Below the pieces are notes generated by a model, which worked only from the letters and a program-made list of their open reading frames with translations, ran no database searches and was not told the origin of the DNA. The position numbers were made by a program, and so were the translations under genes. From assembly GCA_022729855.1 (NCBI GenBank), contig DZBG01000004.1:1-64000 (forward strand): a stretch of DNA of 64,000 nucleotides, given 5' to 3'. This document shows positions 2,969 to 25,667 of this stretch, in pieces; the stretch's first letter is position 1, and each line of letters starts with the position of its first letter. The stretch comes from Bdellovibrio sp. (GTDB lineage Bacteria; Bdellovibrionota; Bacteriovoracia; Bacteriovoracales; Bacteriovoracaceae).

Positions 2969-3967
2969 TTAGCGCAGGAAGTCCATAAGGTTCGTATTCA
3001 TCAAATTAGCACTAGCTTTATAGGCTGCCTTAAGGACGGTCTGCTCTTTTTGGAGGTCACTGAAGAGTTCAGTGACATCAGCGTCTTCAATTTTTGACTT
3101 ATATGACTCATTAAGAAGTTTAGTTTTCTCAATATTTGTTTCCGAGTTCGCAATAGTGTTAGTAAGCGCCCCAATCTCAGTTCTTAATGTTGTCACACGG
3201 TCCATACTTGTATCTAAATTTACAAGCAAGCCTTGGATAATTTCATGGTTATCAGTTAATAGTGCATTTTCTAGGCTTCTGAGTTCATCAAAAATATTAG
3301 AGGTACTGTTGTCAGAGGCTTCAACATTTTCACCTGAAGCCAGATTTCTGCCTTGATCAGGAAGCTCCATATCTGGGCCTTGCTGAATCTCTAATTGTTT
3401 TCTTGTGACTGGAGCTTTGGGTTTAGTAAAAAAGACCTCGGCTCCACTAAGATTAATAGGTACCAATACATCTTTATTTACTTCAACAAACATTTTGCTC
3501 GTATCACCTTGGTAGCTGCCCTCTTTATCAAAAGGACGAGTGAGAATCTTTTGTCCTGCAAAGAGGTAGCGATTCCCCATACGTTTATTGGCGATACTGA
3601 GGGCCTGCTCACGAAGTTGGTGAATCTCTTTGGCCACACCAGATCTAATCTCAACATTATAAATAGAAGAAGCTTGCCCAACAGCAAGCTCTTTTGCTTT
3701 TAATAAAATATCTGTGAGTTCACCCAAAACATTTTCAGTAAATGAGAGTTGAGTATTAGCGAAGTTAACATTACGAAGATATTGTCCAGCATCGATATTC
3801 TGAGAACGAATAGCAAGCAAATCAATATTCCCAACAGGATCATCTGAGGGTTTTGTGATTCTCTTTAATGTCGATCCTCTCATCTGCAAATCTTCCACGC
3901 GCGACTTTGTCTTTCCTACTGCGTAGTTGATTGCACCGACAGAACTATTTTCAGATACTCTCGACAT
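2969..3967 (-). CDS. flgL: Flagellar hook-filament junction protein FlgL (HAP3)
   Basis: The 332-residue product has the flagellin-like N-terminal coiled region (LKRITKPSDDPVGN, LAIRSQ, then QLSFTENVLGELTDILLKAKELAVG) and a matching C-terminal helix ending NTNLMDFLR. The middle segment YLFAGQKILTRPF is typical of FlgL. It joins hook to filament together with FlgK, whose gene lies 8 bp upstream. Compared with filament flagellins it lacks their conserved C-terminus, which supports FlgL over FliC. The minus-strand operon order flgN-flgK-flgL is the usual one. No flagellin gene is in the window. Confidence 0.93.
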   Translation of the reverse strand: MSRVSENSSVGAINYAVGKTKSRVEDLQMRGSTLKRITKPSDDPVGNIDLLAIRSQNIDAGQYLRNVNFANTQLSFTENVLGELTDILLKAKELAVGQASSIYNVEIRSGVAKEIHQLREQALSIANKRMGNRYLFAGQKILTRPFDKEGSYQGDTSKMFVEVNKDVLVPINLSGAEVFFTKPKAPVTRKQLEIQQGPDMELPDQGRNLASGENVEASDNSTSNIFDELRSLENALLTDNHEIIQGLLVNLDTSMDRVTTLRTEIGALTNTIANSETNIEKTKLLNESYKSKIEDADVTELFSDLQKEQTVLKAAYKASANLMNTNLMDFLR

Positions 3968-3975
3968 ACTTTACC

Positions 3976-5442
3976 TTAGTTCATGATCCCTAGGACCGCT
4001 CTGAACATTTCATCTGAAGCTTTAATGACTTTTGCACTGGCTTCATATGCATTTTGATATCTTACCATATTGGCCGCTTCCTCATCTAAAGAAACTCCCG
4101 CGAGTCTTTCTTTGAATGATTTGGCCTGAGCTAAAATTCCTGATGATTGTTCAGTGTCAATTTTAGATTTTCCAGAAAGAAGTCCCACTTGCCCAACAGA
4201 CTTTAAGTACTGTTCTTCAAATGTAGTTGTTCCTTCACCTAAAACTTTTTCATGTTGAAGTTTTGAGATCGCGAGAGCAATGCGGTTATCTCCAGGCTTA
4301 TTGGCCTCAAGAGCTGTCGCAATATTATTCGCATCTTCTTTAACAACATCTGAAAGATCGATATATTCAGCTGCTCTCTTTACATCAAGTGGCTCTTTAA
4401 AAAAATCAAGTCCAGTCACAGGTCTTGCCGCTGCATTTGGAACAGGATTTCCTTGAGCGTCAGTAGGGACTTGAAAATTAGCAAATCCACGACGGTGAAC
4501 GGCATTGGTTGAAAGAACTAATCCGTGAGCAAGCTCATCGACTTGTTTTTCAAGTGCACTAAGTTCATCATCACGAGTTTTAATGAGAGATCCAATTGAT
4601 CCCGTTTTGATTTGATCTGTAATAGATTTACTAGGGCGTGAAGCAAAAAAGATTTCAACATTCCCTTTGTCTGCAGAGCTATCTCCAGGTTTTACTGATG
4701 AACCAGCTCTCAGTTCTTGGGCCACTTCACCTGCTACGAGTGATCCAAGGCCTTCAATATTTACAACATAGCGTCCTTGCTCATCTGAGTAAGTAGAAAC
4801 AGTGAACATCTCGGCCAGAGTTCTGACTGCATTATCACGCTGATCTTGGAGATCGTTCGCTTCTCCACCACCAACTTCAAGAACAGCAATTTCTTTATTT
4901 AATTTTGCGACAGTTTTAGCAAGGCTATTAGCATCTTGAACTTGAAGAGAAATCTTACGGTTCATTGAGGCACGTACTTGATCAAGACTTTCAGTAATAC
5001 GGTGAAAATCTTCAGTCACGATCTTTGCGTTTTCACGAACAATATTTCTTACAGTTTCATTTTCTGGTTGATTTGAAAGTTCTCTGAATGAATTGAAAAA
5101 ACGATTAAGAACTTTGTTTAACCCATCAGAGTTCACTTCATTGAAGATCTCTTCAACGTGTCCAAGCTGAAGAGCACGCTCTTCATTGTACTTATGATTG
5201 GCCGTAGCTACATTGAGTTTCTTTTCGATAAGATCATCATGTGATCTTCTGATTGACTGGATATCTACACCCGTACCAACGACATAATCACCCTCAGAGA
5301 GAGTGATCCCGTTTTTCATACGAACTTCTTGGCGTGAGTATCCGTCAGTATTGGCGTTAGCAATGTTATGCGATGTCGTAGACATCGATTGCTTGGCCGC
5401 TGAGAGCCCCGACTTACCAATATTTAAAAGATCTGCACCCAA
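3976..5442 (-). CDS. flgK: Flagellar hook-associated protein FlgK (HAP1)
   Basis: The 488-residue product opens with the rod/hook/HAP signature (LLNIGKSGLSAAKQSMSTTSHNIANANTDGYSRQEV split over residues 5-40) and closes with the matching helix (NMVRYQNAYEASAKVIKASDEMF). The middle contains the FlgK-specific LNRFFNSFRELSNQPEN segment. It forms the first junction ring between hook and filament. The start is TTG (5440-5442) with AAGGA about 8 bases upstream. The FlgN chaperone gene precedes it by 26 bp, and FlgL follows; these three form a normal secretion unit. The length is a little shorter than the ~550 residues in enterics. Confidence 0.94.
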   Translation of the reverse strand: MGADLLNIGKSGLSAAKQSMSTTSHNIANANTDGYSRQEVRMKNGITLSEGDYVVGTGVDIQSIRRSHDDLIEKKLNVATANHKYNEERALQLGHVEEIFNEVNSDGLNKVLNRFFNSFRELSNQPENETVRNIVRENAKIVTEDFHRITESLDQVRASMNRKISLQVQDANSLAKTVAKLNKEIAVLEVGGGEANDLQDQRDNAVRTLAEMFTVSTYSDEQGRYVVNIEGLGSLVAGEVAQELRAGSSVKPGDSSADKGNVEIFFASRPSKSITDQIKTGSIGSLIKTRDDELSALEKQVDELAHGLVLSTNAVHRRGFANFQVPTDAQGNPVPNAAARPVTGLDFFKEPLDVKRAAEYIDLSDVVKEDANNIATALEANKPGDNRIALAISKLQHEKVLGEGTTTFEEQYLKSVGQVGLLSGKSKIDTEQSSGILAQAKSFKERLAGVSLDEEAANMVRYQNAYEASAKVIKASDEMFRAVLGIMN

Positions 5443-18433: not shown

Positions 18434-19504
18434 ATGTCTAAGTTTTTCATCATTACCTTAAGTTTGTTGTTTGCCTTAAGCTCTTTGGCACAAACAACCT
18501 CTGCTCCCAAAAAACGATCATCGATTTTTCAGTTTGATAAAGATATTTCCAAAATTTTTACAAAGAAAAAGAAAGCCCCAAAGAAAACAAAATCCAAAAA
18601 AATAGCCCAAACAACTCCTGCTTCCACTCCAAAAAAAGAAGTAGCAGTCCCTCCCAAAGTAGTGATTGCTCCTTTGAATGATAATATGGCCGTTTCCTCA
18701 ATGCCAAAATTTTATAAAAAAAGATCTCAAGCAATTTTTAATATTGGTCTTATTTATTATGGGGATTTGTATACGGATGAAAACTTTTCAAAGGTACAAG
18801 ATCTTCTAGAGAAACGATTCGAACTTGCGACCAATGGAGAACTTAAGCTGAATGTCATTTTTAGAGCCATTCTCCCATTTAAAAACCAAATCAAAGATCT
18901 CCCTGACTATAAGTTTGAACAAATTGTTCAGAAAGAGCCGGTTTTAATTACTGAGCCTGTGACTGATATGGATAAGCTTCAACGAATTTGGTATGCGGAA
19001 AATAAAGGAATGAGCGTAGTAAATGAAGTTTATCAAGAAGCAAAAACACATAATCTTTATGGAAAAGATTTTTCTAAATTAGATGCTCTGGCCGTAGTAA
19101 CTGGAGCTCAGTTTGAAGGTCTTGGTTTTGCTTCGGGACGAGTTGCCATTACTGAAAATCCAATGGAAATTGCGTATGGTCATAAATATGGACGAACAGA
19201 AATTCAAAGTGATGCAAAAGTTGTTGATGAACTTCTTCATGAACTTGGACACAGTCTTTCACTAGGTCATGCTACAGAACAGTGTTTTGCTAATGGTATT
19301 GACTACAAAGAGACACAGGCTTGTTGTGCTTTGGCCGAAAATAAAAATGATGTTCTTAGTTATTGCCGACAAAGAGATATGGTTAATGAAAATTTCTTTT
19401 ATGGTTTTGAGGCCTGTAATATGAAGACTATTCGAGAAAAAATTATTCCCGCCATGTTAAAAGGTGGAGAATGGGAACTCAAAGATGTTGCTAAATGTGA
19501 ATAG
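18434..19504 (+). CDS. Secreted metzincin-like zinc protease
   Basis: A 356-residue exported protein. Residues 1-19 are a Sec signal peptide (ending LSSLA), followed by a Lys/Pro/Thr-rich linker (residues 25-75) and a C-terminal peptidase domain. The zinc site is HELGHSLSLGH (H269, E270, H273, H279), the H-E-x2-H-x5-H spacing of metzincins, but the usual Gly at the eighth place is Ser. The expected Met-turn place has VLSYC (307-311), Leu instead of Met. Six or more Cys in the tail suggest disulfides. It probably cuts proteins in the periplasm, outside the cell or in prey; the substrate is unknown. A sigma-54-like promoter lies upstream. Archaemetzincin-like or M10/M12-like placement is uncertain. 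Confidence 0.75.
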   Translation: MSKFFIITLSLLFALSSLAQTTSAPKKRSSIFQFDKDISKIFTKKKKAPKKTKSKKIAQTTPASTPKKEVAVPPKVVIAPLNDNMAVSSMPKFYKKRSQAIFNIGLIYYGDLYTDENFSKVQDLLEKRFELATNGELKLNVIFRAILPFKNQIKDLPDYKFEQIVQKEPVLITEPVTDMDKLQRIWYAENKGMSVVNEVYQEAKTHNLYGKDFSKLDALAVVTGAQFEGLGFASGRVAITENPMEIAYGHKYGRTEIQSDAKVVDELLHELGHSLSLGHATEQCFANGIDYKETQACCALAENKNDVLSYCRQRDMVNENFFYGFEACNMKTIREKIIPAMLKGGEWELKDVAKCE

Positions 19505-21736: not shown

Positions 21737-23224
21737 CTAGGGGCTATTTACCGTTCCAAAGAGTACTGGGTCCGTTTTACAAGTTTTGGTGACTTCTCTA
21801 TAGGTTTTTCCAGAAGGACCACAGTTTCCTCCACCAGGATATCCCATTGCTTTTGCTTCGGTGGTTCCCATATCTTTATAAATTGTTGAGTCGCAGCCAG
21901 GGTCACATGGAGTTGCTGCTGGCGCTCCATTTCCTCCACTACAATAAACACAAGTCCTTTGGACTGTTCTTGGTATTGATTCAGTCGTAAGTGTATTATC
22001 AATATGTTTGTAGATTTTTATAGAAGTTCCTCCTGAGCCACCTCCGAATAAACACTTTGTCCCTGTCCAACTAAAGCCTGACATGCGTTCACAAATTTTT
22101 TGTGCTGTTTGATCAATAGTCTTTCTTGTCCATGAACCTGTTGAAGTGTCATAACCATCAGCGAATGAATAATCATCTACAGTTAAACCACCTGCAGCTG
22201 GTACCGCCCCACAAACAAGAGTTCCGTCACCTTTTACTTCTTTTACATATTGTCCTGATCCGCACTGACCATTTGGAATCGTTTTACAAACGGCTGTTCC
22301 ATTTGAATTAATTCCTTGTAAATATTGATTCACACCACAGGTTGATGTTGAGCAATCAAAACTGCCATCAGGTCTAGAAAAAAGAACGGTGTTAATAGGA
22401 TACGATGGGATAACAACACAAGCGAGAGCTCCACCTGTTAATATTTTAAGATAACTTCCGGCCGTACAACCGGTGACTAGATCTGAGCATATTGGTGAGC
22501 CGCTAGCATCGATTCCATTAATAAATTTTCCAGCGGGACATGAGAGAGCATTAAGAGCAGCTTGGCATCTGATTCGTAATGTTCCACCGGATGTACTTAT
22601 TTCTTTATAGGCCTGATTGGGCCCACAGATATCTGCTGGGTCTCCAACGACGTCATGATAACATTCACCGGAAACTGCATCGTAGCGAGCTGTATTCCCC
22701 TGACAAGCTTTTTGAACAGCCGTTGAGATCATGCTATCTGTGTCACTGAAGCAGCTTGTGATATTTCCTGAGTCAACAACGGCCTTGAGTGGGATTCGTT
22801 TGGTGATAGATTTTGATCCATAAACGACATCATTATTTCTTGTGATCCCAAAAACTAAATTGGTGTCGGTTCCAACTGTTTCAGTTTGCATAGATGAAAT
22901 CGTGAAGGTTCCATTTCCATAAACCGTGCCTGGGACGTACTTAGTGATTAATGGTGGGCCCACTCTTCTAATTCCTGAAATCGCTGCCCCGTTTGCAGGA
23001 GTTCCGGAAGGGATAGAAGCATTACAGTTATCCTTGTCTGATAAGATGTAAGCAACGTCATTGAGCATGAGGTTTATTTCATTATTACTTTCTGTAGTCT
23101 TAGTGACACGATTGGCATTCTGACTAAGCTTTGCAATAGTCAGGGCCAATCCACCTGCAAGACCAGCAGCAATGAGTACTTCAACTAAACCGAATCCAAG
23201 CATATTTCTAAGAATTTTTTTCAT
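21737..23224 (-). CDS. Prepilin-like protein with Cys-rich fibre repeats
   Basis: A 495-residue protein with a class III (prepilin) signal: ten-residue leader MKKILRNMLG, then FGLVEVLIAAGLAGG with Glu at mature position 5, followed by the hydrophobic helix. Residues 28-200 resemble a minor pilin domain. From about 227 to 340 there are four or five copies of a Cys/Gly repeat of the form C-x2-G-x-[YF]-...-G-x3-C. The C-terminal 150 residues are Gly/Ser/Cys-rich with no known domain. I start at ATG 23224 to fit the signal. The first ~80 residues are almost the same as in the divergent gene at 23528, but their codons differ widely. Likely displayed outside the cell as a minor pilin or pseudopilin; its binding target is unknown. 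Confidence 0.75.
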   Translation of the reverse strand: MKKILRNMLGFGLVEVLIAAGLAGGLALTIAKLSQNANRVTKTTESNNEINLMLNDVAYILSDKDNCNASIPSGTPANGAAISGIRRVGPPLITKYVPGTVYGNGTFTISSMQTETVGTDTNLVFGITRNNDVVYGSKSITKRIPLKAVVDSGNITSCFSDTDSMISTAVQKACQGNTARYDAVSGECYHDVVGDPADICGPNQAYKEISTSGGTLRIRCQAALNALSCPAGKFINGIDASGSPICSDLVTGCTAGSYLKILTGGALACVVIPSYPINTVLFSRPDGSFDCSTSTCGVNQYLQGINSNGTAVCKTIPNGQCGSGQYVKEVKGDGTLVCGAVPAAGGLTVDDYSFADGYDTSTGSWTRKTIDQTAQKICERMSGFSWTGTKCLFGGGSGGTSIKIYKHIDNTLTTESIPRTVQRTCVYCSGGNGAPAATPCDPGCDSTIYKDMGTTEAKAMGYPGGGNCGPSGKTYREVTKTCKTDPVLFGTVNSP

Positions 23225-23527: not shown

Positions 23528-25636
23528 ATGAAAAAACTTTTTAAAAACACATTTGGTTTTGGTCTCGTTGAAGTACTTATTGCAGCCGGTTTGGCAGGAG
23601 GGCTCGCTCTCACCATTGCCAAGCTCAGTCAGAATGCAGGGAGGGTGACGAAAACCACAGAGTCCAATAATGAAATAAACATGATGATGAATGATGTGGC
23701 CTATATCCTTTCTGATAAAGGAAATTGTTTGGCCACAATTCCACCAATGACACCTGCAAATGGAGCAAATATTCCTTCAATTAATCGGAATGCAGGAGGA
23801 ACGGCAGTTCCGGTTTTTAAAGCAGATGGTACAAAATATGGAAACGGGACTTTTACGATTTCATCTATGAACACGGAGAGAATTGGGGTTACGGATGATG
23901 TAAGACTTGTCCTCAACATTACAAGGCTTAACAGTGTTGTGAATGGAGCCAAATCAATTACCAAAAGAATTCCATTAAAAGTTGTTTTAACAGGTGCAAA
24001 TATTGATAGTTGTTACTCCGATACTGAAAATATCATAACAACTGCAGCACGAGCGGCTTGTCATGGTAACTCTGCCAGATGGGACGCTACAAATAGCGAA
24101 TGTCACCATGATATTGAATTTGTCGGTGTCACAGGAAACCCTCTTGTCTGTCCAATTTATACGACACCTAAACAAGTAGACACAACTGATGGTGTAGCTA
24201 CTTTCACCTGTGCTCCAATTTTTGATAGTTCATGTGGTACTGGAAGTTTTATCAATGGTTGGGATGCAGATGGTGAACCTCGTTGTAATCCAATTGTATC
24301 GAATAATTGTGGTTTAGGTCAGTACACGAGGACTCTATCTACAGGAGCTTTAGTTTGTGTCGACATTCCTAAATGTGGTGTTCAAGGTGTCCTTAGATCT
24401 GATGCAACATCTGGTGAGCTAATCTGCCAAACGGTTCCATGTAATTCTGTGAACCAGTATTTTGCGGGATTTAATTCTATGGGGAGTCCAGTTTGTAAAA
24501 ACTTTCCTGATAGCTCATGTGGTGCTGGCCAATATATAAAAGAAGTTCGTCCTAATGGTACTGTTGTCTGTGATACTGTTCCTAATCCTGCCCAAGGAGT
24601 AGTTGCTTCAAATGAATACTTACGTGGATATGCAGCTGATGGGACAAAAATTGCTGGAACAATTGATGTTTGTTCTGGCACGAATCAATTCTCGTATTTT
24701 GATGGAACACATTTTGCCTGCGGAAGCGCGACAGGATTATGGCAATTAATATCAAATAAACTTACTTACACCCCAACAAGTTCTCCTACAAAACCTGTTC
24801 GAATTGATTATGATGGGAAAATTTTAGGTAGTAATGGTTTAGATCTCGCTGATGGTGATGTGAATGCGAGTAAAGGATATTTTCGTGGAGCCGGAGCCTC
24901 TATTACTGGGCCATATACTGAAGCAAGGATAAGAATTACTAATACAAGTGGAGAGCAGGATGCTCAATCCTTTATTGAATTTAGGGTTGATAATCCTAAT
25001 GGTGGAGGATCTTTAGAAGTAGGGGTATCAAGACCAAATGGTTCGGCTGTTTATCGTGAAAACAATGCTGGCTATCTTAATGGAAATCTTTTTATGCCAA
25101 GTATCGCAAGTAATAAACCACTTGTTCCAACTCCAACACATTATTATGCTAGTGGATTCGTTTATCCAGGTCTTGGTAAATCAACTTACAGATGGGCCAA
25201 TATTTTTCTAAGTTCATTTCCAAACGTTTCATCTGACAGACGTTTGAAAAAAGAAATTAAAGATTTAGATCTTGGACTTAGTTTTATTGAAAGTTTAAAA
25301 CCCGTAAGTTTTAAACTTAAAAATGATAATAAGATGGGGAATAAAACTAAATACGGTCTAATAGCTCAAGATGTAGAAAAAAGTTTAGATGAGGCCGGAG
25401 TTAGTAAGTTAACAACAGAGATTGTAACGAAAGATGATAATGGATTCTTAGGAATGAGTTACGAGGCATTAATCTCACCAATTATTAAGGCGATCCAAGA
25501 ACTTAGTGATAAAGTAGATTCACTCTTTAACCAGCAAGATAAAGCGATTAAAGATCTCGAGTTAAGAATGAATCAATTAGAAAAAGAGAATAGGATGTTA
25601 AAACAAGAATTAAGAGCGACAAAAAAGAAGAAATAA
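23528..25636 (+). CDS. Prepilin/tail-fibre chimera with S74 chaperone domain
   Basis: A 702-residue mosaic. Residues 1-27 are a class III prepilin signal (leader MKKLFKNTFG, then FGLVEVLIAAG, Glu+5). A pilin-like domain runs to about 200. Cys/Gly repeats (C-x2-G-x-[YF]) occupy about 235-350. A beta-rich fibre section (about 400-560, with WQLISNKLTYTPTSS and STYRWANIFLSS) resembles phage tail-fibre shafts. Then comes a peptidase S74 intramolecular chaperone: SDRRLKKEI with the probable Ser569/Lys574 dyad, YGLIAQDVEK, and LGMSYEALISPIIKAIQEL. A coiled coil ends the chain. S74 domains trimerise fibres and cut themselves off. I infer a surface-displayed trimeric adhesin carried by a pilus or pseudopilus. 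Whether it is cleaved at both ends is unknown. Confidence 0.8.
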   Translation: MKKLFKNTFGFGLVEVLIAAGLAGGLALTIAKLSQNAGRVTKTTESNNEINMMMNDVAYILSDKGNCLATIPPMTPANGANIPSINRNAGGTAVPVFKADGTKYGNGTFTISSMNTERIGVTDDVRLVLNITRLNSVVNGAKSITKRIPLKVVLTGANIDSCYSDTENIITTAARAACHGNSARWDATNSECHHDIEFVGVTGNPLVCPIYTTPKQVDTTDGVATFTCAPIFDSSCGTGSFINGWDADGEPRCNPIVSNNCGLGQYTRTLSTGALVCVDIPKCGVQGVLRSDATSGELICQTVPCNSVNQYFAGFNSMGSPVCKNFPDSSCGAGQYIKEVRPNGTVVCDTVPNPAQGVVASNEYLRGYAADGTKIAGTIDVCSGTNQFSYFDGTHFACGSATGLWQLISNKLTYTPTSSPTKPVRIDYDGKILGSNGLDLADGDVNASKGYFRGAGASITGPYTEARIRITNTSGEQDAQSFIEFRVDNPNGGGSLEVGVSRPNGSAVYRENNAGYLNGNLFMPSIASNKPLVPTPTHYYASGFVYPGLGKSTYRWANIFLSSFPNVSSDRRLKKEIKDLDLGLSFIESLKPVSFKLKNDNKMGNKTKYGLIAQDVEKSLDEAGVSKLTTEIVTKDDNGFLGMSYEALISPIIKAIQELSDKVDSLFNQQDKAIKDLELRMNQLEKENRMLKQELRATKKKK

Positions 25637-25641
25637 AAAAA

Positions 25642-25667
25642 AGCCCCTCATTGAGGGGCTTTTTTTT
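25642..25667. terminator. Intrinsic terminator after the fibre gene
   Basis: AGCCCCTCA and TGAGGGGCT pair around one base, with eight A before and eight T after, working in both directions between the fibre gene and the convergent gene at 25673. Confidence 0.92.

Follow-up and report, generated by a model that had tools for sequence, protein, structure and literature searches.

Positions 23528-25636 on the plus strand of the window (the whole stretch of 64,000 nucleotides of Bdellovibrio sp. DNA analyzed here) hold one open reading frame, free of stops throughout, whose 702 aa product begins with a prepilin leader and ends with an S74 module. Reading of the ORF and its translation confirmed that this prepilin-S74 fusion is real, and the same architecture, with its catalytic residues, a conserved base and a diverging tip, recurs among related genomes. 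We favor, at a probability of about 60%, the interpretation that the protein is a modular minor pilin in which the S74 module zips three copies together and then cuts itself off, producing a homotrimeric adhesive fiber at the tip of a pilus.

Parts of the protein and its locus

The product begins with MKKLFKNTFG followed by FGLVEVLIAAGLAGGLALTIAKL, and thus carries the small residue at -1 (Gly10), the Glu at +5 (Glu15) and the subsequent hydrophobic stretch of a class III leader. The leader residues (MKKLFKNTFG/FGLVE, with the predicted cut after Gly10) are those that an initial annotation, made from the sequence alone, had claimed. The parts of the gene and its surroundings are as follows.

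23528-23557 (+), class III prepilin leader, aa 1-10, putative cut after Gly10 (sequence; Gly at -1 in 41 of 41 relatives)
23558-23713 (+), pilin alpha-1 helix, aa 11-62, Glu15 at +5 (AlphaFold helix 12-61; profile matches to solved pilins)
23714-24112 (+), pilin-like head with a six-stranded sheet, aa 63-195 (AlphaFold model; invariant Cys67 and Cys162)
24140-24592 (+), Cys-pair beta-hairpin repeats, aa 205-355, period ~22-26 aa (cysteine positions; hairpins in the model)
24593-25231 (+), shaft and presumed tip region, aa 356-568 (phage-fiber matches from ~aa 488-558)
25232-25492 (+), S74 intramolecular chaperone, aa 569-655, SDxxxK motif S569/D570/K574, predicted self-cut just before S569 (Pfam, PHROG, model)
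25460-25630 (+), C-terminal coiled-coil helix, aa 645-701 (AlphaFold helix)
25635-25667 (no strand assigned), terminator-like strong hairpin with T/A tracts, directly 3′ of the stop codon (sequence)
21737-23224 (-), divergent paralog of 495 aa with a shared pilin base and Cys-pair repeats, another Cys-rich C-terminus and no S74

The S74 assignment of the C-terminus is firm, and the 702 aa protein belongs to the S74 proteins. PF13884 matches aa 569-624 with 56.9 bits (cut-off 22), its sole match in the 2.8 Mb assembly, and this stretch is also matched by many PHROG tail-fiber and tail-spike families. All three residues of the triad S569-D570-K574 are present within VSSDRRLKKEI, which contains the Ser569/Lys574 pair pointed out in the initial annotation, and each of them is at least 90% conserved in 38 aligned proteins that include the S74-less paralog. 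In the full-length AlphaFold model, the S74 region (∼aa 570-655) has a mean pLDDT of about 75-95, mostly 85-95, and the coiled coil that had been proposed appears as a long final helix, aa 645-701, for the most part at about 88-93. Structure prediction had been suggested as a check on whether an S74 fold is present at all, and the chaperone fold was found: in the PDB the full model came closest to chains of 3GW6, the endosialidase intramolecular chaperone (probability up to 1.00, E 0.017), and comparison with viral models retrieved phage long-tail-fiber and S74 proteins (E 6.6e-10).

A model of the first 215 aa, built on an alignment of 41 N-terminal domains, comprises a helix at 12-61, a short helix and then six antiparallel strands (AlphaFold; mean pLDDT 81). 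Although the 41 N-terminal domains compared are only 15-66% identical to that of the window protein, every one of them keeps Gly at -1, Cys67 and Cys162; the two cysteines likely form a disulfide. The earlier proposal of a pilin-like domain is in keeping with the leader and with the confidently modeled helix and sheet, but Foldseek found no PDB fold match for this domain below E 0.08, and profile matches to solved pilins span the helix only. The weak helix-and-sheet PDB matches of the pilin domain are unrelated folds and were treated as uninformative, and 2MTD, a weak sequence match of the 702 aa protein, is helix-rich and was rejected as a chance match. Profile searches with both terminal domains, also suggested earlier, came out on opposite sides, with PF13884 above its cut-off and Pfam N_methyl, at 13.7 bits, under its cut-off of 21.2. 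What identifies the protein as a pilin is its leader, its helix and the two invariant cysteines; the modeled beta-sheet head has the layout expected of a pilin, and its identity as a pilin head is plausible rather than proven. By membership, the 702 aa protein is very probably a modular minor pilin.

Between the two ends, the Cys repeats that had been noticed are Cys-pair hairpins (aa 205-355) that are regular in the model at a pLDDT of about 55-70, followed by a stretch (aa 354-563) that is mostly below 50. The description of this part as a tail-fiber-like shaft is only partly right, in that matches to phage fibers begin at ∼aa 488-558.

The gene and its paralog sit between ruvCAB and lpxC, with no pilus cluster nearby, and promoter-like sites at the gene showed no excess over shuffled sequences. 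The paralog is 53% identical to the 702 aa protein over aa 1-402, lacks S74 by Pfam and has a different C-terminus. Protein identity between the two reaches ∼87% within their first 60 aa, yet identical residues are encoded by identical codons in fewer than half of the cases. Because the protein is kept while over half of the matching residues differ in codon, the comparison points to an old duplication with the base under selection, and recent gene conversion between the paralogs was rejected on account of the same codon differences. The paralog shares its layout with three other proteins (L039, L040 and L025) that have a pilin leader, similar Cys-pair repeats and other C-terminal ends without S74, the genes sometimes lying as adjacent pairs. 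Three further pilin-leader genes with terminal Cys-pair repeats, one with Gln at +5, are present elsewhere in the window's own genome (L042, 6844-9573).

Recurrence of the fusion and divergence of its tip

The search of predator genomes for the same fusion that the initial annotation had proposed was productive. PF13884 is present in 84 of 129 genomes of the order, and at least 42 distinct prepilin-S74 proteins were obtained after removal of duplicates, a lower bound in that the S74 ORFs read were those of up to ∼1100 aa. Forty-one of these proteins belong to the window's family, where they are spread over 30 genomes and 18 genera, including members named Bacteriovorax and Halobacteriovorax. 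A contig scan with a single protein gave no matches; a scan with a three-row alignment found relatives. Within the family, a prepilin leader is present on 40 of the 66 S74 ORFs with a complete 5′ end (34 with Glu at +5, 6 with Gln or Ala), the others having a lipobox (8), a Sec-type leader (6) or an unclear start (12), as classified by a simple motif rule in a selected sample that is skewed to ORFs under 1100 aa and contains six found using the window protein itself. Since such a leader occurs on only 1 of 73 S74 ORFs outside Bdellovibrionota, we conclude that the fusion is commoner in the family than expected by chance. The pilin-domain profile also matches in other Bdellovibrionota families, where four ORFs that were read (L223, L226, L227 and L228) combine a prepilin leader with S74 motifs. 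An alphaproteobacterial MAG has a prepilin-S74 protein as well (L101, ORF 3591-5348, +) whose N-terminal domain is only weakly related to the Bdellovibrionota pilin domain (17.6 bits); judging from this low similarity, it probably arose separately.

Surveys based on N_methyl would undercount this group, because the Pfam model at E 0.01 finds 16 of 38 proteins and the window protein itself falls short of the cut-off (13.7 versus 21.2 bits). One relative bears a YadA_head repeat, a module of trimeric adhesins, which is in keeping with the trimer favored here. One genome, a single contig of 4.15 Mb with 19 S74 matches, has three prepilin-S74 genes of ∼525 aa in tandem (L135, L147 and L203; G136:C1:348689-354279).

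Between tandem copies, divergence tends to be concentrated in the tip, with the pilin base far better conserved. In one tandem pair (L072) the pilin part is 95-98% identical versus 63-67% for the rest, and in another (L103) the values are 60-63% versus 27-35%; for L077 and L141, identity falls from 88-94% in the pilin to 59% in the shaft and 34% in S74. The contrast between base and tip is weak or absent among the three tandem genes of G136, and in several tandem pairs S74 has diverged as much as the shaft or more.

Relation to known pilins and fibers

The prepilin-S74 fusion as such is already on record. Raynaud et al. (2021) list IPR012902-IPR030392 (prepilin plus S74) among the 15 commonest modular pilins and suggest a peptidase activity (PMC8179133). 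Like the window protein, these modular pilins combine a prepilin N-terminus with S74 in a single chain; however, the architecture was derived from domain hits, S74 was read as a peptidase, and the paper draws no link to trimers, chaperones or predators. A survey relying on N_methyl could, moreover, miss the window protein. This was the sole description of a modular pilin with S74 that we found in the open-access literature, in which we found no description of S74 as a self-removing trimerization chaperone on a pilin, of the abundance of the fusion in Bdellovibrionota, or of the pattern of constant base and variable tip. The novelty of the protein is reduced by the 2021 listing and by the trimeric tip pilins TcpB and CofB.

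The initial annotation had set a pilin-anchored S74 fiber apart from the mosaic adhesive trimers (MATs) of Bdellovibrio, a distinction that we can sustain. In MATs, which are typically ∼1000 aa long, a signal peptide precedes a beta domain of ∼130 aa; in Bd3182, S74 cuts itself off at the catalytic Ser and the fiber tip is a symmetric trimer (PMC10769870). The S74 group of B. bacteriovorus MATs shares with the window protein a C-terminal S74 with SDxxxK, a repertoire of varied tips and a predatory lineage, and variable C-terminal tips with S74 in a subset, characteristic of MATs, are found in the group of the window protein. Because the N-terminal MAT domain is absent, replaced by a prepilin leader, a long helix and a pilin-like head, the 702 aa protein is not a MAT, although it may work like one. 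The anchor of MAT fibers was described as unknown and an interplay with type IV pili was raised (PMC10769870); pilins that end in a MAT-type S74 module make such interplay directly testable and would offer a simple way to pre-form a tip homotrimer.

The type IVb minor pilins TcpB and CofB are likewise large and form homotrimers at the pilus tip (PMC9565799, PMC10191384), as would be expected here, but their third domain is H-type-lectin-like and they have neither S74 nor self-cleavage; no Pfam or PDB sequence match to an H-type-lectin-like domain was obtained for the 702 aa protein. PilV of IncI plasmids also joins a constant pilin base to a variable C-terminal adhesin, but there the variation arises by DNA inversion in a shufflon and no S74 is described (PMC9045228). 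Phage tail spikes and fibers with S74 (endosialidase 3GW6, Gp37-type long tail fibers) share the fold and motif, but are virion-borne and without a prepilin leader.

Proposed assembly and alternatives

For the favored reading, we envisage that the prepilin enters the inner membrane, where the genome's prepilin peptidase would take off the leader, and that in the periplasm the C-terminal S74 chaperone and coiled coil would join three copies. After folding of the fiber, S74 would cut itself off before Ser569 and depart, and the left-over subunits of ∼558 aa would make up a homotrimeric adhesive fiber whose pilin bases cap a type IV filament at its tip, much as CofB and TcpB do. Such a fiber could serve in touching or recognizing prey or surfaces, with paralogs presenting varied tips on the same base. 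The genome encodes a prepilin peptidase, several T2SSE-family ATPases and nine N_methyl proteins above the cut-off. How a trimer could fit the pilus assembly line, left as a question in the initial annotation, is less open given the homotrimeric tip minor pilins CofB and TcpB (PMC9565799, PMC10191384); these set the precedent for a trimeric tip pilin, and the proposal joins them with S74 self-cleavage in a trimeric Bdellovibrio fiber. According to a review, the subunit that caps the tip complex of type 4 filaments lacks Glu5 (PMC10191384), which fits a tip position at least for the six of 42 fusions without Glu at +5 (five Gln, one Ala). Weighing against the favored reading are the distance of the gene pair from any pilus cluster, the head with no PDB fold match, the low-confidence shaft and the strong divergence of S74 in several tandem pairs. 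Also less easily accommodated are relatives such as L146, which before the S74 cut are almost all pilin (∼202 aa) and little fiber. L146 and L153 are very short, at 304 and 320 aa; the cut would leave them with little beyond such a pilin, and S74 in them may trimerize the pilin head itself.

The strongest competing explanation is that the leader is an inner-membrane anchor only, or marks a part of a type II secretion pseudopilus, with the trimer periplasmic and never on a surface pilus. The gene pair is unlinked to a pilus cluster or to the cluster on C96, where four N_methyl genes beside a T2SSE-family ATPase gene are consistent with type II secretion. We nevertheless consider this explanation unlikely, since the long shafts and the evolution of a conserved base with a variable tip suit an exposed adhesin, and S74 modules elsewhere terminate surface or virion fibers (PMC10769870).

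Subunits might instead lie along the filament, or the tip complexes might be heteromeric. A mixed trimer could, for example, include the divergent paralog, which has the same base and hairpins; Myxococcus Kil pili, for which exchangeable tips in predation have been shown, have tips that are heterotrimeric (PMC12075869). The paralog, however, has no S74 and ends differently. Known S74 fibers are homotrimers, and we regard a mixed or lateral arrangement as improbable.

That the pilus displays S74 as a working peptidase, in keeping with the placement of IPR030392 on pilins under peptidase activity (PMC8179133), appears very improbable. The coiled coil is retained, and the closest solved fold is the endosialidase chaperone 3GW6. 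In all cases known to us, S74 acts as an auto-processing chaperone. The existence of a family of pilins ending in a MAT-type S74 module suggests that S74 pilins filed as peptidases merit rereading. That the fusion is accidental, an assembly error or left over from a prophage might be considered on the grounds that S74 domains are typical of phages, but this is so strongly disfavored by recurrence in 30 family genomes, by the open frame and by the housekeeping neighbors ruvCAB and lpxC, with no phage structural genes around, that we give it almost no weight.

Returning to the pilus-tip fiber, the dozens of related fusions suggest changeable, three-stranded, sticky pilus tips, which bears on prey recognition by predators and on the role of the tips of their pili; predation by Bdellovibrio depends on type IVb (Flp) pilins (PMC5430801). 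We put forward only tentatively the wider idea that such diversifying fibers extend across Bdellovibrionota, with S74 joining three prepilins before assembly and then being discarded, so that each pilus would start from a quality-checked, prey-specific tip. If true, this would constitute a second, pilus-borne recognition system beside MAT fibers.

Also in the window, beside ruvC, an ORF at 18434-19504 (+) encodes a secreted-looking protein of 356 aa with a zinc-metalloprotease-like motif, HELGHSLSLGH.
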